Origin: Rubrivivax sp.
Lineage (GTDB): Bacteria; Pseudomonadota; Gammaproteobacteria; Burkholderiales; Burkholderiaceae
Assembly (NCBI GenBank): GCA_016790225.1
Contig: JAEUOZ010000038.1
Span: forward strand, 38,302 to 102,301
Direction of reading: 5' to 3'
Length of the DNA: 64,000 bases
The position numbers were made by a program, and so were the translations under genes. The notes under the pieces are model-generated. The model did not search any database. It had not been told where the DNA came from and saw nothing but the letters and a program-made list of their open reading frames with translations. This document shows positions 5,334-39,147 of the stretch, piece after piece. Every line of letters begins with the position of its first letter. The first letter of the stretch is position 1.

Positions 5334-5334
5334 G

Positions 5335-5403: not shown

Positions 5404-5505
5404 GCGGCCGCCTGCGCGAAGCCGGCGCATCAGGGCGCGCGAGGAACAGCGTGCTCCAGGCTATGTTCCATTTCGACCCCGACCTCGGGAATCCCCGGGT
5501 TCGGC

Positions 5506-5556: not shown

Positions 5557-7425
5557 ATGAAGCCCGGCGAAGCTCTCACCCAGACGACCCTGCCCCTCGG
5601 CGTGGCAGGCTGGCAGCAGTCGTGGGTTTCAGGCGCTGGGCTGCGCGAGTCACTGCTGGCCGCCTACACCAGAGTCTGGGCCAAGGCTGAAGACCCTGCC
5701 TGGATTGCGCGCATCAGCCAGGAGGCGCTGCAGGACAGGCTGGCCGAGCTGGAAGCCCAGGCCGCAGGCTGCGCATCGCCGGATGTGCTGCTGCAGCGGC
5801 ATCCGCTGTGGGGCGTGCCCTTCGCGGTGAAGGACAACATCGATGTCGCCGGCTGGCCCACCACGGCCGCCTGCCCGGCCTTCGCCCGTGTCGCCGAGAG
5901 CAGCGCCACGGTGGTGCAGCGGCTGCTTCAAGCCGGTGCGGTCCTGATGGGCAAGACCAACCTCGATCAGTTCGCCACGGGTCTGGTGGGTACGCGTTCC
6001 CCCTATGGCCAACCGTCCAGTACATGGGACGCCGATCGCGTGAGCGGCGGCTCCAGCTCGGGTTCGGCAGTGGTCGTGGCGCGCGGTGATGTGGCCTTTG
6101 CGCTGGGCACGGATACCGCCGGCTCAGGCCGCGTGCCGGCCGGCTTCAACCATCTGGTGGGCCTCAAGCCGACGCCGGGCCGTGTGAGCACGGCCGGGGT
6201 GGTGCCGGCCTGCCGAAGCCTGGATTGCGTCTCGGTCTTTGCGCTCACGGTGGCCGATGCTGCCGCCGTGCTGGCCGTCATCGAAGGCGCTGACGAAGCC
6301 GACATCTACAGCGCCTTCCTGCCCGGCGCTGGCGCGCTGCCGCACAGGGCCTCAGGCACGCTGCGTATCGGAATTCCGAGCGAGCCCCTGCTGGACACGG
6401 CGCTGGGCTACGACAGCGCGTGGCGGCAGACGCTGGGTCTTGCCTCGGGCCTGCAGATCGAATGGGTGCCTCTCGACATGGCCCCGCTGCAGGCGGTGGC
6501 ACGCCTGCTCTATGAAGGGCCCTGGGTGGCCGAGCGCCACGCGGTGGTCGATTTGCTGCTGGCGCAGCAGCCCGAGGCGCTGGATCCCACCGTCTCGGCG
6601 GTGATCGGTACGGCCACCCGCTTCAGTGCCGCGGATGCCTTCCGCGCGCAATACCGCCTGCGCGAAGCGGCCCGCGAGGCCAACGCGCTGTGGGAAACCG
6701 TGGATCTGCTGATGGTGCCCACGGCGCCGCGCCACCCGCGCTTCGACGAAGTGGCCGCAGATCCCATCGGCGCCAATGCGGTGCTCGGCACCTACACCAA
6801 TTTCGTCAACCTGCTGGGCTGGTGCGCGCTGGCGCTCCCGGCCGCCATCACCTCAGCAGGCCTGCCGTTCGGCGTCACCTTCATCGCGCCCGGCGGGCTG
6901 GATGCGGCGCTGGCGCGCTTCGGCCAGCGCTGGGAACGGGCCGGCGGGCAGGCGCCGGGTCGCTGCGGCGCACCCGCGCCCGGCGTGGGCGAGGCAGAGC
7001 GAGCTGCCCTGCCCTCGCTTCCCTGGCCGCAGAGCCGCCCCACGCTGCCGCTCGCGGTGGTCGGGGCGCACCTCAGCGGCCTGCCACTGAACGGCCAGCT
7101 GCTCGAGCGCGGCGCGACGCTGCGCGAGAGCACCAGCACGGCGCCCGTCTACCGGCTTTTTGCACTGCCCGGCACGCGCCCGCCCAAGCCCGGCCTGCAG
7201 CGCGTGCGCGAGGGCGGCCAGGCCATCGCACTGGAAGTGTGGGACATGCCGCAGGCGGCGCTGGGATCGTTCCTCGCGCTGATCCCTTCGCCGCTGGGCC
7301 TGGGAACGATCGAGCTGGCCGACGGCCGCCAGGTACACGGATTTCTCTGCGAGGCGCATGCGCTGGAAGGCGCCGCCGACATCAGCCATTTCGGCGGCTG
7401 GCGCCGCTATCTGCAAAGCCTCTGA
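5557..7425 (+). CDS. atzF: Allophanate hydrolase
   Basis: The 622-residue protein fits AtzF/TrzF, which hydrolyses allophanate to ammonia and carbon dioxide. The amidase-signature domain has the Ser-cisSer-Lys triad: Lys92, Ser166 in the Gly-Gly-Ser-Ser-Ser-Gly-Ser motif and Ser190 in Thr-Ala-Gly-Ser-Gly-Arg. Spacing agrees with AtzF. After about residue 460 a second domain contains a Pro-Pro-Lys-Pro-Gly-Leu motif, like the C-terminal domain of AtzF-type allophanate hydrolases. The ATG at 5557 is preferred over an upstream TTG at 5533, which would sit at the predicted transcription start. The ribosome-binding site is weak. It is the first gene of the operon and the last step of the pathway. 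Confidence 0.92.
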   Translation: MKPGEALTQTTLPLGVAGWQQSWVSGAGLRESLLAAYTRVWAKAEDPAWIARISQEALQDRLAELEAQAAGCASPDVLLQRHPLWGVPFAVKDNIDVAGWPTTAACPAFARVAESSATVVQRLLQAGAVLMGKTNLDQFATGLVGTRSPYGQPSSTWDADRVSGGSSSGSAVVVARGDVAFALGTDTAGSGRVPAGFNHLVGLKPTPGRVSTAGVVPACRSLDCVSVFALTVADAAAVLAVIEGADEADIYSAFLPGAGALPHRASGTLRIGIPSEPLLDTALGYDSAWRQTLGLASGLQIEWVPLDMAPLQAVARLLYEGPWVAERHAVVDLLLAQQPEALDPTVSAVIGTATRFSAADAFRAQYRLREAAREANALWETVDLLMVPTAPRHPRFDEVAADPIGANAVLGTYTNFVNLLGWCALALPAAITSAGLPFGVTFIAPGGLDAALARFGQRWERAGGQAPGRCGAPAPGVGEAERAALPSLPWPQSRPTLPLAVVGAHLSGLPLNGQLLERGATLRESTSTAPVYRLFALPGTRPPKPGLQRVREGGQAIALEVWDMPQAALGSFLALIPSPLGLGTIELADGRQVHGFLCEAHALEGAADISHFGGWRRYLQSL

Positions 7426-7449
7426 ATTCAACCATTGGAGCACGTCACC

Positions 7450-9057
7450 ATGGATCGTCGCGACTTTATCTCCTCCACCGCCGCCGGCACGCTCGTTCTG
7501 GGTGCACCGCTCGCCGCCCAGGCACAGGCACGCCCCAAGGATGTGCTGATCGTGGCCAACGAATTCGGCCCAAACAGCCTGGACATCCAGACCATCGGCG
7601 CCAACCGGCCGTCCTACGGCGTGAGCTGGCTCTGCTATGACCGGCTGATGACCTACGGCAAGCGCACCCTGCCCGATGGCCGGGTCATGTACGACCGCAA
7701 CAAGCTCGAGCCCGAACTGGCCGAGAGCTGGCAGATGGGCGCTGACGGCATGAGCGTCACCTTCAAGTTGCGCAAGAACGCCAAGTTCCACGACGGCACG
7801 CCTGTCACCGCCAAGGACGTGAAGTGGAGCTTCGACCGCGCGGTCAGCGTGGGCGGCTTTGCCACCTTCCAGATGGGCGCCGGCTCGCTGGAAAAGCCCG
7901 AGCAGTTCGTGGTGGTCGACGATCACACCTTCCGCGTCAATTTCATCCGCAAGGACAAGCTGACGATGAACAACATCGCCGTGCCGGTGCCCTGCATCTT
8001 CAACAGCGAGCTGGTCAAGAAGAACGTCACCGCCCAGGATCCCTGGGGGCTGAACTGGACGCGCAACAACATCGCCGGCGGCGGCGCCTACCGCGTGGAA
8101 GCTTTCCGGCCGGGCCAGGAAATCATCTACGTGCGCAACGACGACTGGAAGAGCGGCCCCCTGCCCAAGCTGCGCCGCATCGTGCAGCGCGAGGTCCCCA
8201 GCGCAGGCAACCGCCGCGCGCTGCTGCTCAAGGGCGACATCGACATGACCTACGACATGCCGCCCAAGGATTTCTCCGAGATGGCCAAGGAAGGCGGCGC
8301 CATCCGGGTCGTGAGCATGCCGGTGGAAAACGCCATGTTCTACGTGGGCATGAACGTGACCAAGCCGCCGTTTGACAACGTCAAGGTGCGCCAGGCCGTG
8401 GCCTGGGCCATCCCTTACGACAAGATTCATGAGACGGCGCTCTACGGCCGCGGCACCAAGCTCTGGGGCGCTGCCTCGGGTACGGTGAAGACCACCGCCT
8501 GGCCGCAACCCACGGGTTACAAGACCGACATCGCCAAGGCCAAGGCCCTGATGGCCGAGGCCGGCGCGGCGGCGGGCTTCGAGACCACGCTGAGTCTCGA
8601 TCTGGGCGGCGCCACCGTCGGCGAGCCCGCGGCCATCCTGATCCAGGAAAGTCTGGCGCAGATCGGCATCAAGACACAGATCAACAAGATCCCCGGCGCC
8701 ACCTGGCGCGCGGCCCTGCTGAAGAAGGACATGCCGCTGATCCTCAACCGCTTCGGCGGCTGGCTCGATTTCCCCGAGTACTTCTTCTACTGGTGCTACC
8801 ACGGCCAGAACGCCGTGTTCAACACGATGAGCTACCAGAACCCCAAGCTCGACCGCGTGATCACCAATGCACGATTCGCGGAGAGCAAGCCCATCTACGA
8901 CAGCAGCGTGCGCGAAATGATCCAGATCGCCTACGACGAAGTGCCGCGCATCCCGATGTTCCAGCCCAGCCAGGACGTGGCCATGCGCAGCGACGTCAAG
9001 GGCTACATGTACTGGTTCCACCTGCAGCCCGACTACCGCAACCTGTCCAAGGCCTGA
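7450..9057 (+). CDS. ABC transporter substrate-binding protein, oligopeptide (SBP_bac_5) family
   Basis: The 535-residue protein starts with a twin-arginine segment (Asp-Arg-Arg-Asp-Phe, residues 2-6), then a hydrophobic stretch ending in Ala-Gln-Ala, so Tat export is likely. Family-5 features include Lys-Phe-His-Asp-Gly-Thr-Pro-Val-Thr-Ala near residue 115 and a long two-lobe body. Its permeases and ATPases are probably the DppBCDF-like genes at 17241-21199, encoded almost 8 kb downstream. By context the ligand is a ureide rather than a peptide. It follows atzF by 24 bp. Confidence 0.88.
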   Translation: MDRRDFISSTAAGTLVLGAPLAAQAQARPKDVLIVANEFGPNSLDIQTIGANRPSYGVSWLCYDRLMTYGKRTLPDGRVMYDRNKLEPELAESWQMGADGMSVTFKLRKNAKFHDGTPVTAKDVKWSFDRAVSVGGFATFQMGAGSLEKPEQFVVVDDHTFRVNFIRKDKLTMNNIAVPVPCIFNSELVKKNVTAQDPWGLNWTRNNIAGGGAYRVEAFRPGQEIIYVRNDDWKSGPLPKLRRIVQREVPSAGNRRALLLKGDIDMTYDMPPKDFSEMAKEGGAIRVVSMPVENAMFYVGMNVTKPPFDNVKVRQAVAWAIPYDKIHETALYGRGTKLWGAASGTVKTTAWPQPTGYKTDIAKAKALMAEAGAAAGFETTLSLDLGGATVGEPAAILIQESLAQIGIKTQINKIPGATWRAALLKKDMPLILNRFGGWLDFPEYFFYWCYHGQNAVFNTMSYQNPKLDRVITNARFAESKPIYDSSVREMIQIAYDEVPRIPMFQPSQDVAMRSDVKGYMYWFHLQPDYRNLSKA

Positions 9058-9066
9058 GGCAGCGTG

Positions 9067-9273
9067 ATGGACTGGAACAGCTACGTGGACTCGCAATGCA
9101 CGCTGCTCGGCCTGCGGCTGACGGCGCAGCAGCGTGAAGGGGTGCTGCGCTACCTGGCGCTGGTGGGCGGCATGGCGCCGCGGGTGATGGATTTCCCGCT
9201 GACACCGGCCGACGAAAGCGGCAACGTGTTCCAGCCGGTGGCCCCTGAGGTTTCCGAAGGAACGGCATCATGA
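9067..9273 (+). CDS. atzG: AtzG-like small subunit of carboxybiuret hydrolase
   Basis: This 68-residue protein lies directly before atzE and overlaps it by 4 bp. It has the features of the AtzG/DUF4089 family: a short helical protein with a Gln-Arg-(Glu)-Gly-Val-Leu-Arg-Tyr-Leu segment followed by a Met-Asp-Phe-Pro-Leu region. AtzG forms a heterotetramer with AtzE, in a relationship like that of GatC to GatA, and stabilises it. A GAGG at about 9056-9059 supports the ATG at 9067; a GTG three bases earlier is an alternative. The assignment rests on size, motif and neighbour. Confidence 0.82.
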   Translation: MDWNSYVDSQCTLLGLRLTAQQREGVLRYLALVGGMAPRVMDFPLTPADESGNVFQPVAPEVSEGTAS

Positions 9274-10607
9274 CGGCGCTGGCTCAGGTGCAGGCAGCGC
9301 TGGCGCGCATCGAGGCCACCGATGACGCGGTGAATGCCTTCACCGCCGTCCTGGCTGAACGCGCACTCGCGCGCGCCGCTGCGGTGGACCGTCAGGGCCT
9401 GCAGGGTCCTCTGGCGGGCATGCCCTTTGCGGTGAAGAACCTGTTCGATATCCAGGGCCTGGCCACGCTGGCAGGCTCGAAGATCGAAGCGACGGCCGCA
9501 CCCGCCCGGCGCGACGCCGCCCTGGTGCGCCGCCTGGAAGCTGCCGGCGCCGTGCTGGTGGGCGCGCTCAACATGGACGAGTACGCGTACGGCTTCACCA
9601 CCGAGAATACGCACCACGGCGCGACGCACAACCCGCATGACCTGGCGCGCATCAGTGGCGGCTCTTCGGGCGGCTCGGCCGCGGCCGTGGCGGCCGGGCA
9701 AGTGCCGCTGACGCTGGGATCGGATACCAACGGCTCGATCCGCGTGCCCTCGTCGCTGTGCGGGGTCTTCGGCCTGAAGCCGACCTTCGGCCGCCTGTCG
9801 CGTGCGGGCTCCTACCCGTTCGTGGCGAGCCTCGACACACTCGGGCCCTTTGCGCGCAGCGTGCAGGACCTGGCCGCTGCCTACGACGCGATGCAGGGCC
9901 CGGATCCGGACGATCCGGCCCAGGTCGCCCGCCCGGTGGAGCCCGTGCTGCCCCTGCTGGAGCGCGGCGCCGAAGGTATCCGCGTGGGCGTGCTGGGCGG
10001 CTGGTTCAGGCAGATGGCCCTGCCGGAGGCGACGGCGGCGGTGGACCGCATGGCCGCCGCGCTGGGTACCGAGCGCATGGTCCACTGGCCCGAGGTCGAT
10101 CGGGCGCGAACGGCCGCGTTCATGATCACCAACGCCGAAGGTGCGGCGCTGCACTTGCCCGATCTGAAGACCCGCGCCGAGGACTTCGACCCCCACACAC
10201 GGGACCGCTTTCTCGCTGGCGCCCTGCTGCCTGCCGCCTGGGTGGTGCAGGCACAGCGCGTGAGGCACTGGTTTGCCAGGCAGGTGGCCCAGAGCTTCAG
10301 GGATGTGGATGTGCTGCTGGCACCGGCCACGCCCTGCACGGCGCCGGCCATCGGCACTGAGTGGATCGAGATCGACGGCAAGAAGCTGCCGGCCCGCGCC
10401 AGCATGGGCCTGCTGACCCAGCCGGTGTCCTGCATCGGCCTGCCCGTGGTCACCGTGCCGCGCTGGCACACCAATCCGGCTGCGCCGCATCTGCCGATCG
10501 GCGTTCAGGTCATCGCCGCGCCCTGGCGCGAGGACCTGGCCTTGCGCGTCGCCTACGCATTGGAGTGCCTGGCCGTGACCACCGCGCCGGTGGCGGAGCT
10601 GCCCTGA
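9270..10607 (+). CDS. atzE: AtzE-type 1-carboxybiuret hydrolase (amidase-signature)
   Basis: The 445-residue amidase-signature enzyme has the triad Lys56, Ser132 (Gly-Gly-Ser-Ser-Gly-Gly-Ser) and Ser156 (Asp-Thr-Asn-Gly-Ser-Ile-Arg). The Thr-Asn-Gly-Ser form and the adjacent atzG gene favour AtzE over a GatA or a general amidase. AtzE with AtzG deaminates 1-carboxybiuret to 1,3-dicarboxyurea. The gene lies between atzG and atzH with 4-bp and 1-bp overlaps, so the three are translationally coupled. The substrate assignment is by family and context. Confidence 0.88.
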
Positions 10608-10999
10608 TGGACATCAACCTGCCCGACATCCACGCCGAAGTCTCGGCGGTGTTTGCGCGCTACGAAGACGCGCTGGTACACAACAAGGTCGAGGTGCTCG
10701 ACGAGTTGTTCTGGGCCAGCCCGCACACCGTTCGCTTCGGCATCGCCGAAGACCTCTACGGCATCGAAGCCATCCGCGCCTTCCGCAACGCACGCTCGCC
10801 GCAGGGCCTGCAGCGACGGCTGATGAATACCGTCATCACCACCTATGGCACCGATTTTGCGACCGCCATGACCGAGTTCCGCCGCGAAGGCGGCAACAAG
10901 CTGGGCCGCCAGGCACAGACCTGGGCCCGCGTCACCGCTGGCCCGCAGGGCTGGCGTGTGGTGGCCGCCCACGTGTCCCTGATCGATCTGCCTAACTGA
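10607..10999 (+). CDS. atzH: AtzH/HpxZ-like DUF3225 protein (candidate dicarboxyurea deamidase)
   Basis: The 130-residue protein belongs to DUF3225 (SnoaL-like fold), recognisable from [11 protein letters not shown] and the Gly-Arg-Gln-(Ala)-Gln-Thr-Trp segment. Two family members have names: HpxZ, in oxalurate catabolism, and AtzH, which converts 1,3-dicarboxyurea to allophanate. Placement directly after atzG and atzE, with atzF in the same operon, favours the AtzH role. Its ATG overlaps the atzE stop by one base. HpxZ remains possible because annotation pipelines use that name for this family. Confidence 0.78.
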
Positions 11000-11024
11000 C
11001 ATCGTCATTCAACAGGAGAGAGCC

Positions 11025-12164
11025 ATGAACAAGCTGCCCCGCAACACACGCCCTGCGCACCAAAGCCGACGCCAGCTGCTGGCACTTGGCGCCCTGGGCG
11101 GTGCCTCACTGGCCCTGCCCGGCGCCCTGCGCAATGCCTGGGCCCAGAGCCCGATCACCGTGGGCATTCTCTATGTCGGCCCGCGTGACGACTTCGGCTA
11201 CAACCAGGCGCACGCCGAGGCGGCGGCGCAGCTGAAGAAGATGGCCGGCGTCAAGGTGGTCGAAGAAGAGAACGTGCCCGAAACCCAGGCCGTGCAGAAG
11301 AGCATGCAGGGCATGATTTCGCAGGACGGCGCCACGCTGCTGTTCCCCACCAGCTTCGGCTACTTTGATCCGCACATGCTGGCCGTGGCGGCGAAGAACG
11401 ACAAGGTGCGCTTCGCCCATTGCGGCGGCATGTGGACGCAGGGCAAGCACCCGGCCAATACCGGCAGCTTCTTCGGCTACATCGACGAAGCGCAGTACCT
11501 CAACGGCGTGATCGCCGGCCACATGAGCAAGAGCAAGAAGCTCGGCTTCGTGGCGGCCAAGCCCATCCCGCAGGTGCTGCGCAACATCAATGCCTTCACC
11601 ATGGGTGCGCGTTCGGTCGATCCGAAGATCACCACCACCGCCATCTTCACCGGTGACTGGAGCATGCCTGTCAAGGAGGCCGAGGCCACCAACAGCCTGG
11701 CCGACCAGGGTGTGGACGTCTTCACCATGCACGTGGACGGCCCCAAGGTGGTGGTGGAAACCGCCGCCCGGCGCGGCCGCATGGTCTGCGGCTACCACGC
11801 CAGCCAGGCCAAGCTGGCACCGAATGCCTACCTCACAGGCGCCGAGTGGAACTGGCTCACGGCCTACACGCGCATCGTCGACGCCGCACGCACCGGCAAG
11901 CCGCACCCCAACTTCGTGCGCGGTGGTCTGAAGGACGGCTTCGTCAAGAGCTCGCCCTATGGCGCGATGGTCAGCGAAGCTGCGCGCAAGAACGCCGAAG
12001 ACGTGCGCAAGAAGATGATGGCCGGCGGCTTCGACATCTTCGGGGGTGAGCTGAAGGACAACACCGGCAAGGTCGTGATCCCCAAGGGCACGATGCTCAA
12101 GCAGATCGACCCGGTGCTGGAGTCGATGAACTACCTGGTTGAAGGCGTGATCGGGAAGGTCTGA
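11025..12164 (+). CDS. BMP-family ABC transporter substrate-binding protein
   Basis: The 379-residue protein has a Ser-Arg-Arg-Gln-Leu-Leu twin-arginine signal ending in Ala-Trp-Ala near residue 40. The mature protein matches the BMP (basic membrane protein, PnrA-like) family: an Asp-Asp-Phe-Gly-Tyr-Asn segment at the N-terminus and a Gly-Tyr-His-Ala-Ser-Gln-Ala motif late in the protein. BMP proteins usually bind nucleosides or purine derivatives. The next two permeases and the ATPase at 14922 complete the importer. A GGAG motif precedes the ATG. Confidence 0.88.
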   Translation: MNKLPRNTRPAHQSRRQLLALGALGGASLALPGALRNAWAQSPITVGILYVGPRDDFGYNQAHAEAAAQLKKMAGVKVVEEENVPETQAVQKSMQGMISQDGATLLFPTSFGYFDPHMLAVAAKNDKVRFAHCGGMWTQGKHPANTGSFFGYIDEAQYLNGVIAGHMSKSKKLGFVAAKPIPQVLRNINAFTMGARSVDPKITTTAIFTGDWSMPVKEAEATNSLADQGVDVFTMHVDGPKVVVETAARRGRMVCGYHASQAKLAPNAYLTGAEWNWLTAYTRIVDAARTGKPHPNFVRGGLKDGFVKSSPYGAMVSEAARKNAEDVRKKMMAGGFDIFGGELKDNTGKVVIPKGTMLKQIDPVLESMNYLVEGVIGKV

Positions 12165-12204
12165 CGTCCAAGCTCTTAGAGCCAAGGACTGACCGCAAAC
12201 TGCC

Positions 12205-13269
12205 ATGAAGCTGCACGACATCACCGAAGCCCTCGCGCTGCCCCTGCTGGCGCTGGCCTGCGGCCTGGGCCTGTTCGGTGTGTTCGTGTGGTTTCACGGT
12301 CATGACCCAATGCAAGCCTGGGCGCTGCTGTTTCGCGGCGCCTTTGGCGATGCCTTCTCCATCCAGAACACCTTGCAGCGCGCGGCGCCGCTGATGCTCA
12401 CTGCCTTGTGCGTGGCCATCCCGGCGCGGGCCGGCTTGACGGTGATCGGCGGCGAAGGCGCGCTGGTGCTGGGCGGGCTGGCAGCGGCGGCCACGCCCTA
12501 TTTGTTTGCGCCGCCGGCGGGTGCTGCCGGCACCGCCGTCCTGCTGCTGTCGGCAGCGTTGGCGGGTGCGGCCTGGATCGCGCTGGCCGGCTGGTTGCGC
12601 CAGTGGCGGGGGGTCAACGAGACCATCTCCAGCCTGCTGCTGGGCTATATCGCCATCAACCTCTTCAAGCACATCGTCGAAGGCCCGCTGCGTGATCCGG
12701 CGAGCCTGAACAAGCCTTCCACGCTGCCGCTGGAAGAGAGCCTGCGCATCGGCACGCTGCCGGGCTGGGATGTCCACTGGGGCCTGGTCTTCGGCATCGT
12801 CGCCTGCCTGCTCGCGGCTTTCTGGCTCAGCGCCACCACCCATGGGCTGGCCACGCGCATCGTGGGTGGCAACCTGCGCGCTGCGCGCGGTGTCGGGCTA
12901 CCGGCCACGCGCCTGATCGTCACCGCCTGCGCACTCGGCGGCGCAGCGGCGGGGCTGGCCGGCGGCATCGAGGTGGCGGCGGTGCACACCTCGGCCAATG
13001 CCTCGCTCATCGTCGGCCTGGGCTACACCGGCATCCTGGTCAGCTTCGTGGCCAGGCATCAGCCGCTGGCGGTGATCCCCGTGGCCATCCTGTTTGGCGG
13101 CTTCCTGGCCGCCGGCAGCCTGCTGCAGCGCCGCATGGGCCTGCCCGATGCCTCGGTGCCCGTGCTGATGGGTTTCTGCTTCGTCTTCATCCTGGCCAGC
13201 GAAGCCTGGCGGGGTCGCTTGGGTGAACTCTTCGTGCTGCGCAGGCCGCCGGTGGCGGTGCCCGCATGA
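12205..13269 (+). CDS. ABC transporter permease, nucleoside/BMP-type
   Basis: The 354-residue protein has about eight to ten hydrophobic segments and the Val-Asn-Glu-Thr-Ile-Ser-Ser-Leu motif typical of permeases in the branched-chain/sugar/nucleoside (BPD_transp_2) family. It lies between the BMP binding protein and a second permease of the same class. It should form one half of the membrane channel for the BMP-type importer, in the inner membrane. The spacer after the BMP gene is 40 bp. Confidence 0.87.
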   Translation: MKLHDITEALALPLLALACGLGLFGVFVWFHGHDPMQAWALLFRGAFGDAFSIQNTLQRAAPLMLTALCVAIPARAGLTVIGGEGALVLGGLAAAATPYLFAPPAGAAGTAVLLLSAALAGAAWIALAGWLRQWRGVNETISSLLLGYIAINLFKHIVEGPLRDPASLNKPSTLPLEESLRIGTLPGWDVHWGLVFGIVACLLAAFWLSATTHGLATRIVGGNLRAARGVGLPATRLIVTACALGGAAAGLAGGIEVAAVHTSANASLIVGLGYTGILVSFVARHQPLAVIPVAILFGGFLAAGSLLQRRMGLPDASVPVLMGFCFVFILASEAWRGRLGELFVLRRPPVAVPA

Positions 13270-13300
13270 GCCGGCAGCCAGCAGTCCGAGGGAGCGTCCG

Positions 13301-14224
13301 ATGACATCATTCGATGATCTGTTGGGGGTTCTGCTCGGCGTGCTGGGCGGCGCCATCCGTGTGGGCACGCCCTTCCTCTTTGTCAGCCTGGGCGAGTGCA
13401 TCACGGAAAAGGCCGGCCGCATCAACCTGGGCCTGGAAGGCGTGCTGGTGTTCTCCGCCATGGCCGGCTTTGCGGGCTCCTACCTGACCGGGCACTGGTG
13501 GCTAGGGGTGCTGCTGGCGGGTTTCAGCGGCGCCTGCATCGCGGCGCTGCACGGCCTCATCGCCAGCCTGCCGCGAGTCAACGACATTGCAGCCGGCATC
13601 GCCATCATGATGTTCGGCGCAGGCCTGGCTTTCTACCTGGGCAAGCCGCTGATCCAGCCGCAGGCGCAGCAGATTCCTTCGCTGCCGCTGGGCGCCTGGT
13701 CAGACTCACCCAACGTGCAGGCGGCGCTGTCGATCAATGCGCTCTTCCCGGTGGGCGTGTTGCTGGCCCTGGCGCTGGCCTGGGGCCTGAAGAACACGGG
13801 CTGGGGGCTGACGGTGCGCATGGTGGGCGATTCGGCCGATGCCGCGCGTGCAGCGGGCACATCCGTCACAGCCGTGCGCGTGGCCGCCACCACGGCGGGC
13901 GGCTTCATCGCCGGCCTGGGTGGTGCTTCACTGAGCCTGTACTTCCCCGGCAGCTGGAACGAAGCACTGTCCAGCGGCCAGGGCCTCATCGCCGTGGCCC
14001 TGGTGATCTTTGCGCGCTGGCACCCGGTGCGTTGCCTGTGGGCGGCCTTGCTCTTCGGCGGCGCGGGGGCGCTCGGCCCGGCGCTGCAATCCATCGGCGT
14101 CAGTGGCTACACCTATCTCTTCAACGCCGTACCGTATGTGCTGACGCTGGCCATCCTGGTATGGACCTGCAGCCCGCGCCAAAGCCTGCGCGGCGCGCCG
14201 GCCGAGCTGGGAGTGACCCGCTGA
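13301..14224 (+). CDS. ABC transporter permease, nucleoside/BMP-type
   Basis: The 307-residue membrane protein is the second permease of the BMP-type importer. It carries Gly-Glu-(Cys)-Ile-Thr-Glu-Lys-Ala-Gly near residue 28, followed by a Gly-Leu-Glu-Gly motif, which is a hallmark of nucleoside-type BPD_transp_2 permeases. The ATG at 13301 follows a GGGAG. The frame is open further upstream, but that would overlap the preceding gene. Its stop overlaps the start of the cysteine hydrolase gene by one base, tying transport to hydrolysis. Confidence 0.87.
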
Positions 14225-14925
14225 TGAGCACCGCCAACACCATCGACGCCAACCCCTATCCGTGGCCCTTCGACGGCGACCTTCGGCCGGACAACACGGC
14301 GCTGATCGTCATCGACATGCAGACGGATTTCTGTGGCCGTGGTGGCTATGTGGACGCCATGGGTTACGACATCAGTCTCACGCGGGCGCCGATCGGGCCG
14401 ATCGCTAGCCTGCTGGCGGCCATGCGCCCCCTGGGCTACACCATCATCCACACCCGCGAAGGGCACCGGCCCGATCTGTCTGACCTGCCGGCCAACAAGC
14501 GCTGGCGATCGCAGCGCATCGGCGCTGACGGTGTCGGCATCGGCGACGTTGGCCCCTGCGGCCGCATCCTGGTGCGCGGCGAGCCGGGCTGGGAAATCAT
14601 CCCCGAGCTGGCGCCGCTGCCCGGCGAGGTGGTGCTGGACAAACCCGGCAAGGGCAGCTTCTGTGCCACCGATCTGGAGCTGATCCTGCGCACCCGCGGC
14701 ATCCGCAACCTTGTGCTCACCGGCATCACCACCGACGTCTGCGTGCACACGACCATGCGCGAAGCCAATGACCGCGGCTTCGAGTGCCTCATTGTCGAAG
14801 ACGCCACCGGCGCCACCGATCCGGGCAACCACCAGGCGGCGCTGAAGATGGTGACGATGCAGGGCGGCGTGTTCGGCGCGGTGGCCTCGTCGCAGGCGAT
14901 TCTGCGCACCTTGGGGCTCACATGA
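14224..14925 (+). CDS. biuH: Biuret-hydrolase-like cysteine hydrolase (isochorismatase family)
   Basis: The 233-residue protein belongs to the isochorismatase-like cysteine hydrolases. The expected catalytic triad is Asp31 (Ile-Asp-Met-Gln), Lys140 (Lys-Pro-Gly-Lys-Gly) and Cys173 (Thr-Asp-Val-Cys-Val), with the Lys-Cys distance of 33 known for BiuH. The N-terminal Pro-Tyr-Pro-Trp-Pro segment, the His-Arg-Pro-Asp-Leu-(x)-Asp-Leu-Pro-Ala-Asn-Lys-Arg stretch and a late Met-Gln-Gly-Gly-Val-Phe-Gly motif with a glutamine closely resemble BiuH as I recall it. BiuH converts biuret to allophanate, the substrate of AtzF encoded in the same operon. Confidence is good for BiuH-like, lower for exact substrate. 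Confidence 0.82.
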
Positions 14926-16568
14926 CCACAGCACTGTCTTTGGAGACCGTTGAGCTGGGCAAGCGCTTCGGCAGCTTCACCGCACTGGCCGATTGTTCGA
15001 TTCGCGTCGCACCCGGCACGGTGCACGCGCTGCTGGGCGAAAACGGGGCGGGCAAGAGCACGCTCGTGAAGTGCATCGTTGGCTATCAGGCCGCCGATAC
15101 GGGCGCCGTGCTCCTGGATGACCGCGAGCAGGCGATCACCAGCCCCACGGTGGCGCGCGCGCTGGGCATCGGCATGGTCTACCAGCACTTCACCGTGGTG
15201 CCCGGCATGACGGTGGCGGAAAACCTGCTCATCGCCAAAGGCCGGCTGCCCGCCATCATCCCCTGGCAGCGCCAGCGCGCCGAGCTGCGGGCCTTCATGC
15301 AGACCGCGCCCTTCAGGCTGGATCTGGACGCCACGCCGGCCGATCTCTCGGCGGGCGAAAAGCAGAAACTGGAGATCCTCAAGCAGCTGTACCTGCAGCC
15401 GCGCCTGCTGATCCTGGACGAACCGACCTCGGTGCTGACGCCGCAGGAGGCCGATGAAGTGCTGGGCGCCCTGCGCGACCGCGCCCATGCCGGCCAATGC
15501 ACGGTGCTGATGATCACGCACAAGTTCCGCGAGGTCATGGCCTTCGCCGACGACGTGACCGTGCTGCGCCGTGGCCGCGTGATGGTGAGCCGTTCGGTGG
15601 CCGGCAGCACGCCGGGCGAGCTGGCCGCCGCCATGGTGGGTGATGACAGCGCCGCGCGCGAAGAAGCCGCCGACAGCCCGGTGCTGAAGCGCGAAGCCAC
15701 GGCACCGGGGGCACCCCAAGCGCCTGTCAAGCTGGCGCTGCGAGGCCTCACGGTGCGCGGCGATCGCGGCGAGCTCGCCGTGGCGGGTGTCGATCTCGAG
15801 GTGCGCAGTGGCGAGATCGTGGGCATTGCCGGTGTCTCCGGCAACGGCCAGCGCGAACTGATGGAAGCCTTGTCGGGCCAGCGCCCGCGCGAGGCCGGGC
15901 AGGTGCAGGTGGCAGGCCACAGCTATCGCGCCACTCGAGCTCAGAACCGCGCGCTCAAGGTGCGGGGCCTGCCCGAAGAGCCGCTGCGCAACGCCTGCGT
16001 GGGCAGCATGAGCGTCGCCACCAACATCGGCCTGCGCAGCTTCGATGTGGCGCCGCACGCCCGTGGCGGCCTGCGCGTGCCCGGCACGCTGGCCCGGCGC
16101 GCGCGCGAGCTGATCGCGCAATACCGCGTCAAGACACAAGGCGAAGACGCACCGATCGCCTCGCTGTCCGGCGGCAACGTGCAGCGCGCCGTGCTCGCCC
16201 GCGAACTGTCGGACGATGCCGAGGTGCTGCTGGTCAGCAACCCGGTCTTCGGGCTGGATTTCACCGCCGTGGCCGAGGTGCATGCGCGGCTCATCGCCGC
16301 GCGCAACCGCGGCGCGGCAGTGCTGATGGTGAGCGAAGACCTCGACGAACTGCTGCATGTGGCTGACCGCATCGTGGTGATGAGCGGTGGCCAGCTGGTC
16401 CACGCCTGCGCTGCGGCGGGCGCCGACCGTCACCACATCGGCAGCTTCATGGGCGGTGGGCATGGGGCACACGGCGGACCGCTTGTGCAGCGCTCTGCGA
16501 TCGTCGCTGGAACGCCTGGAACGCCTGGATCACCGGACGCCCCGGTACCGCAGAAGGAAGCCGCATGA
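14922..16568 (+). CDS. Duplicated ABC transporter ATPase, sugar/nucleoside type
   Basis: The 548-residue protein has two ABC modules. The first has Walker A Gly-Glu-Asn-Gly-Ala-Gly-Lys-Ser-Thr at residues 39-47 and a Leu-Ser-Ala-Gly-Glu signature near 142. The second has a degenerate Walker A (Gly-Val-Ser-Gly-Asn-Gly-Gln, lacking Lys-Ser/Thr) and a Leu-Ser-Gly-Gly-Asn signature near 415, as is usual for the RbsA/NupO type. It powers the BMP-type importer. It overlaps the hydrolase genes on both sides by 4 bp. A short Gly-Thr-Pro repeat tail precedes the stop. Confidence 0.9.
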
Positions 16569-17239
16569 CGACCCCGGTCAGGGCCCGGCCCTTTGCCTTT
16601 GCGCTGCAACCCGGCCGCGCCGCGCTGCTGATCATCGACATGCAGCGTGACTTCATCGAACCCGGCGGCTTTGGCGCTTCCCTGGGCAACGATGTGTCGC
16701 TGCTGCAGGCCGCCATCGCGCCGACGCAGGCGCTCTTGCAGGCCTGGCGCCAGCGCGGCTGGACAGTGGTGCACACGCGCGAATCGCATGCGGCCGATCT
16801 GTCGGATTGCCCGCCGGCCAAGCGCGAACGGGGCACGCCCTCGCTGCGCATCGGCGACGCAGGCAGCATGGGCCGACTGCTGGTGCGCGGCGAGCCGGGC
16901 TGCGAGATCGTGCCCGCGCTCAGCCCGCTGCCGGGCGAGATCGTCATCGACAAGCCCGGCAAGGGCGCGTTCTACGCCACAGCGCTGCAGGCAGAGCTGC
17001 AGGCACGCGGCATCACGCAGCTGGTCGTCGCGGGTGTCACCACCGAGGTCTGCGTGCAGACCACTATGCGCGAAGCCAATGACCGCGGCTACGACGGCCT
17101 GCTGGTGGAAGAAGCCACCGCCAGCTACTTTCCGCAGTTCAAGGCCGCCACCCTCGAGATGATCGTGGCACAGGGCGGCATCGTCGGCTGGTCGGCACGA
17201 CTCGACGACCTGCTCTCGGCCCTGCCGGAGGTGCACTGA
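16565..17239 (+). CDS. Second isochorismatase-family cysteine hydrolase (candidate triuret or related ureide hydrolase)
   Basis: The 224-residue protein keeps the cysteine-hydrolase triad: Asp25, Lys130 and Cys163, again with a Lys-Cys distance of 33. It shares Met-Arg-Glu-Ala-Asn-Asp-Arg-Gly and the Gln-Gly-Gly segment with the hydrolase at 14224. It differs in the N-terminus, lacking the Pro-Tyr-Pro-Trp motif, and in the substrate-loop region, where Cys-Pro-Pro-Ala-Lys replaces Leu-Pro-Ala-Asn-Lys. A plausible role is an upstream ureide hydrolase such as TrtA, which turns triuret into carboxybiuret. That would explain AtzEG and AtzH without AtzD. Family is certain; substrate is inference. 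Confidence 0.8.
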
Positions 17240-17240
17240 G

Positions 17241-18254
17241 ATGCTGCGCGTCATCTTCAAACGCCTGCTCGCCGCGCTGCCCAATCTGGTGGGTGTGGTC
17301 ATCATCACCTTCCTGCTCACGCGCGCCATCCCGGGCGACCCGGCCGCCTACTTCGCCGGTGGCGCGGCCACGCAGGAAGCGGTGGAACAGGTGCGCAAGT
17401 CCCTGGGCCTGGACAAGCCGCTGATCGAGCAGTTCTTCATCTATGTCGGCAACCTGGCGCGCGGTGATCTGGGTCTTTCGCTCACCACGGGCCAGCCGGT
17501 GCTGAAGGAACTGCTGCACCGCCTGCCAGCCTCGTTGGAAGTGGTGCTGCTCGCGCTGCTGCTGAGCTGCGCCATCGCCATCCCCATGGGCGTGATGGCG
17601 GCCACGCGCCCGGGCTCCTGGATTGACCAGCTGGCCCGCCTGATCACCACGGCCGGCGTCTCTCTGCCCACCTTCTTCACCGGGCTGCTGCTGGCCTATG
17701 TCTTCTACTTCCTGCTGGGCTGGGCGCCCTCACCCTTGGGCCGGCTGGATCCGATGTTCTCTCCGCCACCCACGGTCACCGGCCTGTACCTGATCGACGC
17801 CGCCATCGCCGGGGACCGCGCCTTGTGGTGGGCCGCCTTCAAGCAGCTGATCCTGCCGGTGGTGACCATGGCCATCTTCGTGATGGCGCCCATTGCCCGC
17901 ATGACGCGCGCCTCCATGCTGGCCGTGCTGTCGGCTGATTTTGTGCGCACAGCACGTGCCAGCGGGCTGTCCGAAACCACGGTGCTGATCCGCTATGCCT
18001 TGCGCAATGCACTGCTGCCTGTCGTCACCACCCTGGGCATGGTCTTCGGCTTCATGATCGGCAGCTCGGTCATCATCGAGAAGGTCTTTGGCTGGCCTGG
18101 GGTGGGCAGTTATGCCATCGACGCGCTCACGGCCAGCGATTACGCGCCGGTGCAGGGCTTCGTGCTGACCATGGGCATTCTCTTTGTGTTGCTCAATCTG
18201 CTGGTTGATCTGCTCTATGTGCTGATCGATCCGCGTGTGCAGGTGGAATCATGA
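17241..18254 (+). CDS. ABC transporter permease, DppB/OppB type
   Basis: The 337-residue inner-membrane protein shows the DppB pattern: an N-terminal transmembrane helix, an Arg-Ala-Ile-Pro-Gly-Asp-Pro-Ala motif near residue 30, and the permease EAA-like loop (Arg-Thr-Ala-Arg-Ala-Ser-Gly-Leu) near residue 237. It forms the channel with the DppC-like protein encoded 4 bp overlapping downstream. The cognate binding protein is probably at 7450-9057. One base separates it from the preceding hydrolase gene. Confidence 0.9.
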   Translation: MLRVIFKRLLAALPNLVGVVIITFLLTRAIPGDPAAYFAGGAATQEAVEQVRKSLGLDKPLIEQFFIYVGNLARGDLGLSLTTGQPVLKELLHRLPASLEVVLLALLLSCAIAIPMGVMAATRPGSWIDQLARLITTAGVSLPTFFTGLLLAYVFYFLLGWAPSPLGRLDPMFSPPPTVTGLYLIDAAIAGDRALWWAAFKQLILPVVTMAIFVMAPIARMTRASMLAVLSADFVRTARASGLSETTVLIRYALRNALLPVVTTLGMVFGFMIGSSVIIEKVFGWPGVGSYAIDALTASDYAPVQGFVLTMGILFVLLNLLVDLLYVLIDPRVQVES

Positions 18255-19120
18255 GCGGCAGCAGCAGTTCAGGCACCAGCGGCACCTGGAGCCACGTCCG
18301 CCACGTGCTCACGGAGAACCCCGTCACGCTGATGGCCGCCATCCTGTGCGCAGGCTTCATCGTGCTGGCCTTGATCGGGCCGCTGATCGTGCCCTATGAC
18401 CCCTTGGCCAGCAACGCCAGCCGCGCGCTGGAGCCACCGAGTGCCGACTACTGGTTCGGCACCGATGCGCTGGGGCGCGACATCTTCTCGCGCGTCATCG
18501 TCGCCACGCGGCTGGATCTGGGCATCGCGCTGAGCGCGGTGATGCTGAGCTTCATCATCGGCATGCCGCTGGGCCTGGCGGCGGGCTTTCTGGGTGGCTG
18601 GTGGGACCGCATCGTCACGCGCGGCGCCGACACGATCATGGCCTTCCCACTCTTCGTGCTGGCCATGGGCATCGTGGCGGCGCTGGGCAATACCGTGGGC
18701 AACATCGTGCTGGCCACGGCGATCATCAACCTGCCCTTCTACATCCGCGTGGCGCGCGCCGAGGCCAACGTGCGGCGCGGCGCCGGCTGGATCGAAGCCG
18801 CACGCCTTTCAGGCAACAGCGACGCGCGCATCCTCGCCGTGCACCTGTTTCCCAATGCGCTGCCGCCGGCCATGGTGCAGCTGAGCCTGAACATGGGCTG
18901 GGCGATCCTGAATGCCGCGGGCCTGTCCTACATCGGCCTGGGCGTGCGGCCACCCGAGCCCGAGTGGGGCATCCTGGTGGCCGAGGGCGCGCAGTTCATC
19001 GTCTCCGGCGAATGGTGGGTGAGCTTCTTTCCCGGTGCCATGCTGATGCTGGCCGTCTTCACCTTCAACCTGCTGGGTGATGCACTGCGGGACATCTTTG
19101 ATCCCCGGAGGCGGACATGA
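18251..19120 (+). CDS. ABC transporter permease, DppC/OppC type
   Basis: The 289-residue protein has an N-terminal cytoplasmic tail rich in Ser/Gly, a first transmembrane helix, then a Phe-Gly-Thr-Asp-(x)-Leu-Gly-Arg-Asp motif near residue 73, characteristic of DppC/OppC. The EAA-type loop (Glu-Ala-Ala-Arg-Leu-Ser-Gly-Asn) follows near residue 180. It pairs with the preceding DppB-like permease. Overlaps with both neighbours are 4 bp, consistent with tight translational coupling. Confidence 0.9.
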   Translation: MSGSSSSGTSGTWSHVRHVLTENPVTLMAAILCAGFIVLALIGPLIVPYDPLASNASRALEPPSADYWFGTDALGRDIFSRVIVATRLDLGIALSAVMLSFIIGMPLGLAAGFLGGWWDRIVTRGADTIMAFPLFVLAMGIVAALGNTVGNIVLATAIINLPFYIRVARAEANVRRGAGWIEAARLSGNSDARILAVHLFPNALPPAMVQLSLNMGWAILNAAGLSYIGLGVRPPEPEWGILVAEGAQFIVSGEWWVSFFPGAMLMLAVFTFNLLGDALRDIFDPRRRT

Positions 19121-20166
19121 GCGCTCAATCTCAACCGCCCCTGCTGGACGTTCAGGGCTTCGGCCTGGAGTTCCGCACCCGTGGCGGCATCGTGCATGCG
19201 CTGCAGGCCATCGATCTGCGCATCCACAAGGGCGAGATCGTCGGCCTGGTGGGCGAAAGCGGCTCGGGCAAGAGCGTGCTCAGTTACGCGCTGCTGGGCA
19301 TCAGTGACCGTGCGGCGCGTGTCACCGGCGGCACAGCGCTGTTCGGCGGGCTGGATCTTCTGAAGGCCGACGCCGCCACGCTGGCCGATCTGCGCGGGCG
19401 CGAGGTCTCGATGATCTTCCAGAGCCCGCGCACGGCACTCAACCCGATCCGCGCCGTGGGCCTGCAGATCGAAGACGTGCTGCGCCGTCACGCCGCTGCG
19501 CGCGGCCCTGACCTCGGCACCAGCCTCAGGCAGCGCGCCGTGCAGGCCCTGCGCGATGTCGCGATTGCAGACCCCGAACGCCGCGCCTCAGCCTACCCGT
19601 TCGAGCTGAGCGGCGGCATGTGCCAGCGCGTGATGATTGCCCTGGCCCTGGCCTGCCGCCCCAGCCTGCTGATCGCCGACGAACCCACCACCGGCCTGGA
19701 TGTCACCACGCAGGCCGCCGTGATGGACTTGATCGCCGGCCTGGCGCGCGAGCGCCAGATGGCCACACTCTTCATCACGCACGATCTGGCGCTGGCCGCT
19801 GACCACTGCGACCGCATCGTCGTGATGCACGCCGGCCATGCGGTGGAATCGGCCCCCACGCGCAGCCTGTTTGCCACCCCGCGCCACCCCTACACCGCGC
19901 GCCTGATGGGCAGCACACCCGGCCATGGCCGCAGCCTCGCGCAGATGCAGTCCGTGCCCGGCAATCTGCCCGATCTGCGCCGCAACGATCTGCCAGCCTG
20001 CCGCTTCGCGGATCGCTGCGAGCGTGTCACCGAGCGCTGCCGCCGCGAACGCCCCGTGCTGGACGCCACTCAGGCACACGCCGTGGCCTGCTGGCACCCG
20101 CTGTCGGTGGATGCTGCGCTGCCCACCCCGCCTCACGCGCCGGCATCGGAGCCCCACCATGCTTGA
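19117..20166 (+). CDS. ABC transporter ATPase, DppD/OppD type
   Basis: The 349-residue ATPase has Walker A Gly-Glu-Ser-Gly-Ser-Gly-Lys-Ser at about residues 46-53, a Leu-Ser-Gly-Gly-Met signature and an Asp-Glu-Pro-Thr-Thr-Gly-Leu Walker B region. The C-terminal extension has the Cys-Arg-Phe-(x)-(x)-Arg-Cys-(x6)-Cys cluster of oligopeptide-type ATPases. It overlaps the DppC-like gene by 4 bp and the DppF-like gene by 8 bp. Confidence 0.91.
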   Translation: MSAQSQPPLLDVQGFGLEFRTRGGIVHALQAIDLRIHKGEIVGLVGESGSGKSVLSYALLGISDRAARVTGGTALFGGLDLLKADAATLADLRGREVSMIFQSPRTALNPIRAVGLQIEDVLRRHAAARGPDLGTSLRQRAVQALRDVAIADPERRASAYPFELSGGMCQRVMIALALACRPSLLIADEPTTGLDVTTQAAVMDLIAGLARERQMATLFITHDLALAADHCDRIVVMHAGHAVESAPTRSLFATPRHPYTARLMGSTPGHGRSLAQMQSVPGNLPDLRRNDLPACRFADRCERVTERCRRERPVLDATQAHAVACWHPLSVDAALPTPPHAPASEPHHA

Positions 20167-21199
20167 ACCGCTGTTGCGTGTTGAAGGGCTTCACAAGCGT
20201 TATGCCGTGACGGGGCCCAAGGCCAAGAAGGGCGCTCAGCTTCATGCCGTGGACGATGTCTCGCTGGACATCGCGCCCGGCGAGAGCGTCGGCCTGGTGG
20301 GTGAATCCGGCTGCGGCAAGAGCACGCTCTCGCGCCTGCTGGCCAGGCTGCATGACCCGACCGAAGGCCGCATCAGCTTCGATGGGCAGGATCTGGCGGC
20401 GATGCCGTCGCTGAAGTTTGCGCGTTCGCCCCAGCGGGCCGCGATCCAGATGGTGTTTCAGGACCCCACCGACAGCCTGAACCCGCGCTTCACCGCGCGT
20501 GAAGCCATCGGCGAGCCCTTGCAGCTGCTGCAAGGTCTGCGTGGCGATGCGCTGCGTGCCCGGGTGGACGAGGTGTCTACACAAGTCGGCCTGCCGCTGG
20601 AACTGCTGCCGCGCTATCCGCACCAGCTCTCCGGCGGCCAGAAGGCGCGCGTGGGCATCGCCCGCGCACTGGCCGTGAAGCCGCGGCTGCTGATCCTGGA
20701 CGAGCCCACCGCGGCGCTGGATGTCTCGGTGCAGGCCGTGGTGCTGCAACTGCTGGCGCGGCTGCGCGCCGAGCTGGGCCTGGCCTACCTCTTCGTCAGC
20801 CACGATCTGAACGTGGTGCGCCTGCTGACTGACCGCGTGGCTGTGATGTACCTGGGCAAGCTGGTCGAACTGGGCCCTTCAGAGCAGGTTTTCAGTGCCC
20901 CGCAGCACCCCTACACCCAGGCGCTGGTCTCGGCCATTCCGGGCCAGGGGCCACGCGTGAAGCTGCAGGGCGAAATCGGCAGCCCCATCGATCCTTCGCC
21001 CCACGCCTGCCGCTTTCACGGCCGTTGCCCACGCGGTGAAGACCGTTGCGGCCGCGAGGCGCCGCCCCTGCGCATGCTGGGGCCGCAGCATCAGGCGGCC
21101 TGCCACTTTGCCGGGCCCATCGAGCCGCACAGCGGGGCCGCGGTCTGGCCCCATCCCACGTCCGCAGAGCAGAACCCGGCGTCATCCACGTCATCATGA
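20159..21199 (+). CDS. ABC transporter ATPase, DppF/OppF type
   Basis: The 346-residue ATPase has Walker A Gly-Glu-Ser-Gly-Cys-Gly-Lys-Ser-Thr, a Leu-Ser-Gly-Gly-Gln-Lys signature and an Asp-Glu-Pro-Thr-Ala-Ala-Leu Walker B region. It also carries the C-terminal Cys-rich oligopeptide-ATPase extension. It completes the second importer of the operon. The ATG at 20159 is inside the end of the DppD-like gene; a longer open frame upstream lacks the family N-terminus and is not used. Its stop overlaps the regulator start. Confidence 0.91.
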
Positions 21200-21915
21200 C
21201 GGCCATGAATGCCGCACCCCGTGGCCCCGCACGCGCCGAGGCCCCCCGCACCAACCTCGCCGAACAGGCCTATACGCGCCTGAAAGCCGAACTGCACGAT
21301 TTCCTCTTCGTCCCCGGAGACCGTTTCAGCGAAGCCGAGATCGGCGAGCGCCTGGGCATGAGCCGCACGCCCGTGCGCGAAGCCCTGTTCCGCCTGCGCA
21401 ACGAGGGCTTTCTGGATGTCGAGAGCAAGAGCGGCTGGTTCGTCAAGCCCATCGATTTCGAACGCATCGATCAGCTCTACGACCTTCGCATCGTGCTGGA
21501 GACCGCCAGCCTCGCGCGCCTGGAGCAAAGGGATGACGATCCCCCGGAACTGCAGCAGCTCAAGCAGGTGTGGCTGGTGCCGGCCGCCGAGCGGCTGGCC
21601 GATGCGAGGCAGGTGGGCGAACTCGACGAGCGCTTCCACGCCCAGCTGGTTGCCGCCACCGGCAACGCCGAAATGGCCCGCGTCCACCAGGACGTGACCG
21701 AACGCATCCGCATCGTGCGCCGCCTGGATTTCACCCGCGCCGACCGCATTGAAGCCACCTACCTCGAACACGCCAAGATCCTGCGCGCCGTGATGCAGCG
21801 CCGCACGGATCAGGCGGCGCTGATGCTCAAGAGCCACATCGAGCAGAGCAAGCTGGAGGTGCGCAAGATCACCTTGCATGCGCTGTTGCAGGCGCGGGGG
21901 CGGGCGAGCGCCTGA
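21196..21915 (+). CDS. GntR-family (FadR/FCD type) transcriptional regulator
   Basis: The 239-residue protein has an N-terminal winged helix-turn-helix with the segment Leu-Gly-Met-Ser-Arg-Thr-Pro-Val-Arg-Glu-Ala near residues 55-65, and a C-terminal all-helical FCD ligand-binding domain. It is the last gene of the ureide operon and overlaps the DppF-like gene by an ATGA, so it is produced with the operon and may respond to a pathway intermediate. A GntR/FCD controller of a ureide operon differs from the LysR-type AtzR of the known cyanuric acid operon. Confidence 0.9.
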   Translation: MTAMNAAPRGPARAEAPRTNLAEQAYTRLKAELHDFLFVPGDRFSEAEIGERLGMSRTPVREALFRLRNEGFLDVESKSGWFVKPIDFERIDQLYDLRIVLETASLARLEQRDDDPPELQQLKQVWLVPAAERLADARQVGELDERFHAQLVAATGNAEMARVHQDVTERIRIVRRLDFTRADRIEATYLEHAKILRAVMQRRTDQAALMLKSHIEQSKLEVRKITLHALLQARGRASA

Positions 21916-39134: not shown

Positions 39135-39147
39135 CGCGTGGCGCTCT

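Follow-up and report, generated by a model that had tools for sequence, protein, structure and literature searches.

A stretch of Rubrivivax sp. DNA (assembly GCA_016790225.1, contig JAEUOZ010000038.1; 64 kb, hereafter the window) raises the question of which compounds are consumed by an operon that carries the lower cyanuric acid pathway genes atzG, atzE, atzH, and atzF together with two cysteine hydrolases and two transporters. The operon probably serves to scavenge nitrogen from triuret and biuret, and would be a composite switched on through sigma-54 under nitrogen limitation. The use of biuret or triuret as a nitrogen source, as proposed in the original prediction, has good support: the gene identities, the substrate-determining residues, the nitrogen-type promoter site, and the genomic context all fit it.

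The identities of the two hydrolases could be separated by score and by residue. The first, predicted to be BiuH-like, scored 419 bits against the BiuH model NF050097 (cut-off, 370) and carries Y, Y, S, D, T, and V at six discriminating positions, identical to the Rhizobium leguminosarum BiuH (locus L081; loci and genomes used for comparison are numbered L and G, respectively). The second, present as predicted, scored 256 bits against the same model, under the cut-off, and matched Protein Data Bank (PDB) entry 6xix at 294 bits compared to 194–223 bits for the BiuH entries; 6xix is TrtA (PMC7948467). Based on residues reported in that publication, the catalytic Asp24, Lys129, and Cys162 are all present, and F35, N41, A134, E160, Y187, and I205 are TrtA-type at six of six discriminating positions, such that all 14 of the residues drawn from it for a role in catalysis, binding, or specificity are kept. 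By these scores and residues, the first cysteine hydrolase is assigned as BiuH and the second as TrtA.

The remaining enzymes were assigned in the same manner. Scores over the curated cut-offs place AtzF, AtzE, and AtzH firmly in their families, while AtzG is the weakest call. The AtzE best matched PDB entry 6c62 (554 bits; runner-up, 225) and is 60% identical to AtzE of Pseudomonas sp. ADP (hereafter ADP AtzE) and 55% identical to Klebsiella HpxY. In the AtzH, each of the nine residues reported for the pocket of ADP AtzH (PMC6219798) is conserved, including Tyr22, Arg46, and Arg66. The linkage to TrtA and the 60% identity to ADP AtzE suggest that AtzEG acts on carboxybiuret.

All of the genes named in the original prediction were present in the order given, with family scores in agreement, as 16 genes on the + strand from 5557 to 21915. 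Intergenic gaps ranged from −5 to +40 bp (starts as compared), or from −8 bp with the preferred start of dppF at 20159, which overlaps dppD by 8 bp; the original prediction gave spacers of 0–40 bp. Starts preferred from reading the translations are used for atzH (10607), permease 2 (13301), biuH (14224), and dppF (20159). The following features were observed (coordinates in the window, strand, description):

5506..5521, +, sigma-54-type −24/−12 site, TGGCAC-N5-CTGCT, 35 bp 5′ of the atzF start
5557..7425, +, atzF, allophanate hydrolase, 622 amino acids; TIGR02713, 745 bits (cut-off, 511); best PDB match, allophanate hydrolase 4gyr
7450..9057, +, sbp5, family 5 (oligopeptide-type) binding protein; PF00496, 284 bits
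9064..9273, +, atzG, small subunit, GTG start, 69 amino acids; PF13318 (AtzG-like), 43.8 bits (gathering threshold, 24)
9270..10607, +, atzE, 1-carboxybiuret hydrolase subunit; TIGR02715, 680 bits (cut-off, 426)
10607..10999, +, atzH, Arg66 kept; PF11533, 193 bits; NF033625 (AtzH/HpxZ), 199 bits (cut-off, 135)
11025..12164, +, BMP-family binding protein; PF02608; best PDB match, AtzT 6pi5
12205..13269, +, ATP-binding cassette (ABC) permease 1; NF047929, 152 bits, under the cut-off of 400; family level
13301..14224, +, ABC permease 2; NF047928, 136 bits, under the cut-off of 465; family level
14224..14925, +, biuH, biuret hydrolase; NF050097 as above; PDB 6azo, 395 bits
14922..16568, +, double ABC ATPase of the BMP transporter; NF047930, 426 bits, under the cut-off of 670; family level
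16565..17239, +, trtA, triuret hydrolase; PDB 6xix and published residues as above
17241..18254, +, dppB-like permease; family-level match
18251..19120, +, dppC-like permease; family-level match
19117..20166, +, dppD-like ATPase; family-level match
20159..21199, +, dppF-like ATPase; family-level match
21196..21915, +, GntR/FCD regulator; PF00392 and PF07729

From the gene identities, residues, architecture, and promoter pattern shown here we infer the substrate, the flow of intermediates, the regulation, and the order of events. Sigma-54 would switch the operon on under nitrogen limitation, and the BMP transporter, perhaps along with the Dpp-type transporter, would import the ureide. TrtA would convert triuret to carboxybiuret and ammonia, AtzEG would deaminate carboxybiuret to 1,3-dicarboxyurea, AtzH would convert this to allophanate, and AtzF would free the last ammonia, with BiuH taking biuret that was either imported or formed by spontaneous decarboxylation. 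The spontaneous decarboxylation of carboxybiuret is slow (half-life ~20 min; PMC7948467). The original prediction held that both a decarboxylating route and the AtzEG/AtzH route were present; the genes for the latter were found, but none of the candidate carboxybiuret decarboxylases that occur in sister operons (cupin, MTHFS-like, or AtzH not linked to AtzE) was found in the 64 kb. The TrtA product would therefore probably pass via AtzEG and AtzH, with BiuH acting on biuret, and since the AtzH of the window is of the AtzE-linked type, that biuret would be supplied by slow spontaneous decarboxylation or by import.

Using a search with TrtA, it was possible to explore which genes accompany trtA elsewhere. 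At least 584 relatives were recovered, of which the best 80 were fetched, and the 55 loci with at least 9 kb of flank upstream of trtA and 3 kb downstream (complete loci) were counted. Layouts were determined by tblastn with gene calls at set identity thresholds; clustering of open reading frames (ORFs) had been swamped by antisense ORFs in GC-rich DNA and was set aside. The full core, BMP-permease-permease-biuH-ATPase-trtA, occurred in 52 of 55 complete loci. AtzE was found in 25 loci (22 with a detected AtzH and three without), a solo AtzH-like gene in 18, a small cupin in nine, and none of these in three, such that exactly one of the three modules was present in 52 loci and a cupin never occurred together with AtzE or AtzH (0/55). 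As TrtA is common to all, the simplest reading of three exclusive modules is that they are alternative ways to handle carboxybiuret, though part of the cupin exclusion reflects kinship because all nine cupin loci are alphaproteobacterial. The AtzE and AtzH-like genes join trtA in various positions (upstream of the BMP gene, downstream of trtA, divergent, or inside a Dpp operon). A solo AtzH-like protein is also encoded in Ideonella dechloratans (L082). A formamidase occurred in 23 loci (e.g., L022), usually between permease 2 and biuH, and also in L081 (4668–5684), and a PF01812 (MTHFS-like) protein in four. Among alphaproteobacterial trtA loci, a PF01812 5-formyltetrahydrofolate cyclo-ligase-like protein adjoins the AtzH-like gene in L013, L026, L062, L065, L069, and L080.

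AtzD, the ring-opening enzyme of the cyanuric acid pathway, was scored in three of the 55 complete trtA loci and inside the core in only one (L008), where it lies between biuH and the ATPase gene, as it does on the plasmid of R. leguminosarum bv. viciae 248 (L081). In the window, tblastn (one query each, E 1e-3) returned no match in 64 kb for AtzD, a further ring-opening amidohydrolase, a cupin, an MTHFS-like protein, a formamidase, or a gamma-glutamyltransferase, though the operon's own proteins were matched in the same 64 kb as a control. The absence of AtzD noted in the original prediction is therefore upheld within the window, but it is not unusual, both from the one core in 55 and because biuret metabolism is apparently mostly independent of cyanuric acid metabolism (PMC7948467).

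In its architecture, the operon resembles a hybrid of two distinct operon types with atzGEH in common. In one type, atzF-sbp5-atzE-atzH-dppBCDF occurs without trtA or biuH nearby (L115, L120, L131, and L147, with gntR at the end in three of the four; order variants in L108, L146, and L172). The other, seen in L002 (Rubrivivax rivuli) and L006, reads atzGEH-BMP-permeases-biuH-ATPase-trtA-gntR, with none of these Dpp genes adjacent. The composite layout, sbp5-atzGEH-[BMP...trtA]-dppB, was found in the window, L001, L003, L004, and L151. The tree of the binding protein placed the three composite sequences that are complete in one clade (support, 99) nested with L115, L120, L131, and L147 (97), and the AtzE tree grouped the composites with the trtA-linked AtzE of L002, L006, L036, and a further eight loci, mostly from Variovorax (99). 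The block atzGEH-BMP-permeases-biuH-ATPase-trtA would have been placed between sbp5 and dppB of an atzF-sbp5-atzGEH-dppBCDF operon, and the crossover may have taken place at the atzGEH genes common to both types. Compared to the window, L151 is 76–84% identical across sbp5, atzE, and dppBCD, 62% for atzF, and 71% for AtzH, and within the BMP...trtA block 80% for biuH and 55–70% for the rest. Forcing the L151 BMP-BiuH-TrtA into the clade of the window, L001–L004, and L006 was disfavored (approximately unbiased test, p-AU = 0.026; group picked post hoc, with a long branch). From the divergence of this block and the p-AU, the block may have undergone insertion or exchange repeatedly.

The BMP-family binding protein is related to AtzT, which binds guanine (PMC6834077). 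Aligned to AtzT, the window protein keeps Tyr45, Ser97, Phe98, Asn169, and Trp194 and differs at T139Q, E165Q, N218H, and N220D, and these nine pocket positions are identical in all five trtA operons compared (window, L081, L082, L084, and L091), unlike AtzT. The pocket likely fits a flat ligand other than guanine, predicted to be triuret or biuret.

Promoters under sigma-54 nitrogen control are expected to carry a TGGCAC-N5-YTGCW-type motif. The site at 5506–5521 was the sole match to TGGCACNNNNNYTGCW (TGGCAC-N5-YTGCW) in the 64 kb, where 0.42 were expected. A looser pattern, TGG[CT]RY-N5-YTGC, defined once the window site had been seen, was searched for between 150 bp upstream and ~30 bp downstream of each inferred atzF start (background, 0.013 per stretch). 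It occurred at 25 of 32 atzF genes that come first in their operon, a count that includes the window and several closely related loci, compared to one of 21 internal atzF genes, and on the reverse strand in none. Five truncated atzF genes were excluded, and first position was judged against the searched gene families only. Together these sites suggest that the operon is under sigma-54 nitrogen control. Three direct-repeat copies with 23-bp spacing (5330–5415; 78–100% alike) lie upstream of the sigma-54-type site, and a guess at a palindromic regulator site in the window found nothing.

Several observations weigh against an operon for triuret and biuret as outlined. The AtzG scored 25 bits against NCBIfam HpxX (cut-off, 70) and matched ADP AtzG only at E 0.78, and atzF lies 5′ of sbp5 in the window and L151, while the stretches of L001, L003, and L004 end before that position. 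Two HpxY rows fall in an AtzE clade (97) with L172 and five trtA-linked AtzEs, leaving kinship unsorted by substrate. Further, 16 genomes were fetched that carry atzF and atzE but no nearby trtA, and 15 were searched (the genome of L144 was left out): ten are without a TrtA of ≥50% identity, five have a TrtA of 59–70% identity elsewhere, and ten have an AtzD-family gene, with G182, G356, G270, G159, and G257 (genomes that are possibly incomplete) having neither. As these five are without both carboxybiuret sources, AtzEG may have a further substrate, and one that the Dpp-type transporter could import. Taken to its end, this would place two pathways on one transcript, BMP-BiuH-TrtA for triuret and biuret (through spontaneous decarboxylation) and SBP5-Dpp-AtzGEH for some other imported acylurea, both ending at AtzF. 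Such an arrangement is rather unlikely: though the five genomes, the existence of an atzF-sbp5-atzEH-dpp operon without nearby trtA, and the retention of both importers in the window all speak for it, the mutual exclusion of AtzE(GH), solo AtzH-like genes, and cupin is as expected if all act on the TrtA product, and many loci have AtzE and AtzH beside trtA without these Dpp genes.

That AtzEGH instead act on oxalurate, as in Hpx-type purine breakdown, is very improbable, despite the NCBIfam naming of AtzH relatives as HpxZ and of AtzG relatives as HpxX, both for oxalurate catabolism, the 55% identity between the window AtzE and Klebsiella HpxY, and the grouping of HpxY with trtA-linked AtzEs noted above. 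The AtzE of the window falls outside that clade, in a different clade from HpxY, and is somewhat nearer to ADP AtzE, and the same operon holds AtzF and TrtA. An HpxW-type gamma-glutamyltransferase defines the Hpx oxalurate pathway and was unmatched in the 64-kb window. A cyanuric acid operon with its ring-opening gene elsewhere in the genome also has little probability; AtzD likewise yields carboxybiuret (PMC7948467) and occupies its position beside biuH in L008 and L081, but the window operon has TrtA as an alternative source of carboxybiuret, and AtzD is rare in the core of trtA loci.

Within ureide operons, the AtzH-like proteins differ at a pocket residue, Arg66, according to their gene context. 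In a first set, Arg66 was present in 25 of 25 AtzE-linked AtzH of trtA loci and in 0 of 23 solo AtzH-like proteins outside the AtzE-linked group; four more solo proteins group with AtzE-linked AtzH, three from Variovorax with Leu and L039 with Arg, where the contig ends at the gene. A PF11533 search of 399 genomes from the order of L002 gave a match in 77, and the 67 strongest matches (≥142 bits) besides that of L002 itself were added as loci, leaving out 16 weaker rows. Loci were classed as ureide operons by trtA or biuH within the fetched stretch (window included) and as AtzE-linked by AtzE within 6.5 kb. Combined, the ureide operons comprised 45 loci with Arg66 and AtzE and 31 with neither, with no crossovers (45/45 compared to 31/31). 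Rows truncated at a contig end were excluded, namely L039 (Arg66), L011 and L080 (non-Arg), and five non-ureide rows, and the short stretches L097–L105 (seven genomes already represented) were dropped; two of these had otherwise unrepresented AtzH-like genes, L100 (Arg66, with AtzE) and L103 (Arg66, without AtzE), and neither trtA nor biuH was found within these short stretches. Among the 45, L093, L163, L166, and L168 carry an outgroup relative of TrtA and L118 and L119 show biuH only, and among the 31, L070 and L075 have a distant amidase (~35% identical) ~16.7 kb off that was not scored as AtzE.

Outside of ureide operons, Arg66 occurred with AtzE in 30 loci and without it in 16, and one locus had AtzE without Arg66 (L172, R66C), with five cut; the 16 loci and L172 rule out Arg66 as a mark of AtzE linkage everywhere. 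The tree needed four changes for each trait and offered four independent pairs (one on well-supported branches), so the tie between Arg66 and AtzE is strong by counts but represents few events, and with four (or one) pairs significance was out of reach for a phylogenetic sign test. Arg66 is thus a candidate specificity switch within ureide operons. Against a simple reading of this residue, Arg66Ala and Arg66Lys of ADP AtzH were made and are absent from the variants reported as impaired in a reconstituted pathway (PMC6219798). Arg66 may therefore exclude carboxybiuret instead of being needed for dicarboxyurea, and keeping carboxybiuret out would avoid a biuret dead end in a host that lacks BiuH. 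As the window has both Arg66 and AtzEG, its AtzH should act after AtzEG. Within ureide operons, Arg66 offers a candidate annotation rule for AtzH-like genes that are now named "oxalurate catabolism protein HpxZ" in NCBIfam. A further context for the family was seen in L127, L129, L135, and related loci, which have an Arg66 AtzH-like protein with AtzE, TrtA, and BiuH not seen within ~7–9 kb.

The AtzE tree also bears on the possible origin of the Pseudomonas sp. ADP cyanuric acid pathway. ADP AtzE fell in a 12-row clade (100) with L089, another AtzE from an AtzD operon, and ten trtA-linked AtzEs. A search with ADP AtzE of 399 genomes (same order, largely as in the PF11533 sample) gave a strong match in 46, with >65% identity in two only, G002 (79%, the genome of L022) and G056 (70%, that of L109), both trtA-linked; the sample is small and was partly chosen through trtA, with the L022 genome at its center. 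The AtzE of Acidithiobacillus caldus (L086), beside a gamma-glutamyltransferase, sits with alphaproteobacterial trtA-linked AtzEs (96). It is tentatively proposed, at somewhat short of even chances, that AtzGEH evolved for the TrtA product in triuret operons and was later borrowed by the ADP pathway, and that where AtzE was lost or replaced the AtzH-like protein lost Arg66, which would hold the AtzE-made carboxylate, and became a carboxybiuret decarboxylase, such that one residue would predict the route. If true, this would be a route by which the atrazine-degrading plasmid could have obtained its lower pathway. The occurrence of AtzGEH beside trtA in several arrangements would supply AtzGEH with a natural carboxybiuret source besides a herbicide breakdown product.

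Most parts of the operon are known from published systems, and its layout cannot be regarded as unreported. Operons with trtA, biuH, and atzF have been described in Herbaspirillum sp. BH-1 and R. leguminosarum (PMC7948467) and have TrtA, BiuH, and AtzF in common with the window. In R. leguminosarum bv. viciae 248, the trtA locus likewise includes a BMP transporter; it differs in encoding AtzD, a formamidase, and a small cupin but not AtzGEH, which the window has along with a Dpp-type second transporter. Gene order is similar in clusters of beta-proteobacteria (PMC6219798), where atzF precedes atzGEH, separated from it in about half of the clusters by ABC transporter genes, and further ABC transporter and amidase genes follow; the passages describing these clusters name no substrate, and in the window the 'amidases' resolve to BiuH and TrtA. 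The same publication concluded that the contexts of atzH-like genes say little on specific AtzH function. AtzG, AtzE, AtzH, and AtzF are common to the pADP-1 cyanuric acid operon (atzDGEHF), where the BMP-type AtzT is in a divergent operon; in the window, TrtA replaces AtzD as the carboxybiuret source, BiuH is present, and the BMP pocket is changed. The Klebsiella hpx genes likewise pair an AtzE-family amidohydrolase with HpxX and HpxZ, but TrtA, BiuH, and AtzF were not found in the 14 kb examined, and the transporter is an amino-acid-type ABC system. TrtA-TrtB-BiuH-AtzF pathways with BMP transporters, in which TrtB is the carboxybiuret decarboxylase, have been proposed in nitrifiers (PMC12625717), and an oxidized-purine ureide has already been proposed as the source (PMC7948467), where AtzEG is noted only as existing for carboxybiuret hydrolysis. 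AtzGEH acting after TrtA in one operon did not appear in the available descriptions in PMC7948467, PMC6219798, or PMC12625717 or in open-licence literature listings, and it is this combination that suggests an origin for part of the cyanuric acid pathway.

Beyond the operon, a 466-amino acid ORF lies 3′ on the − strand (22098–23498), with an AbfB match below threshold only and a GC content (0.60) lower than elsewhere. Pfam domains of RecD, UvrD-helicase (RecB-like), and RecC type on the − strand at 36969–46606 form a RecBCD-like cluster. On the + strand, a phage-type integrase (52689–54044) is followed by a DUF3987 protein (55546–58182; both by Pfam), a pair suggesting that the right part of the window contains an integrated element.

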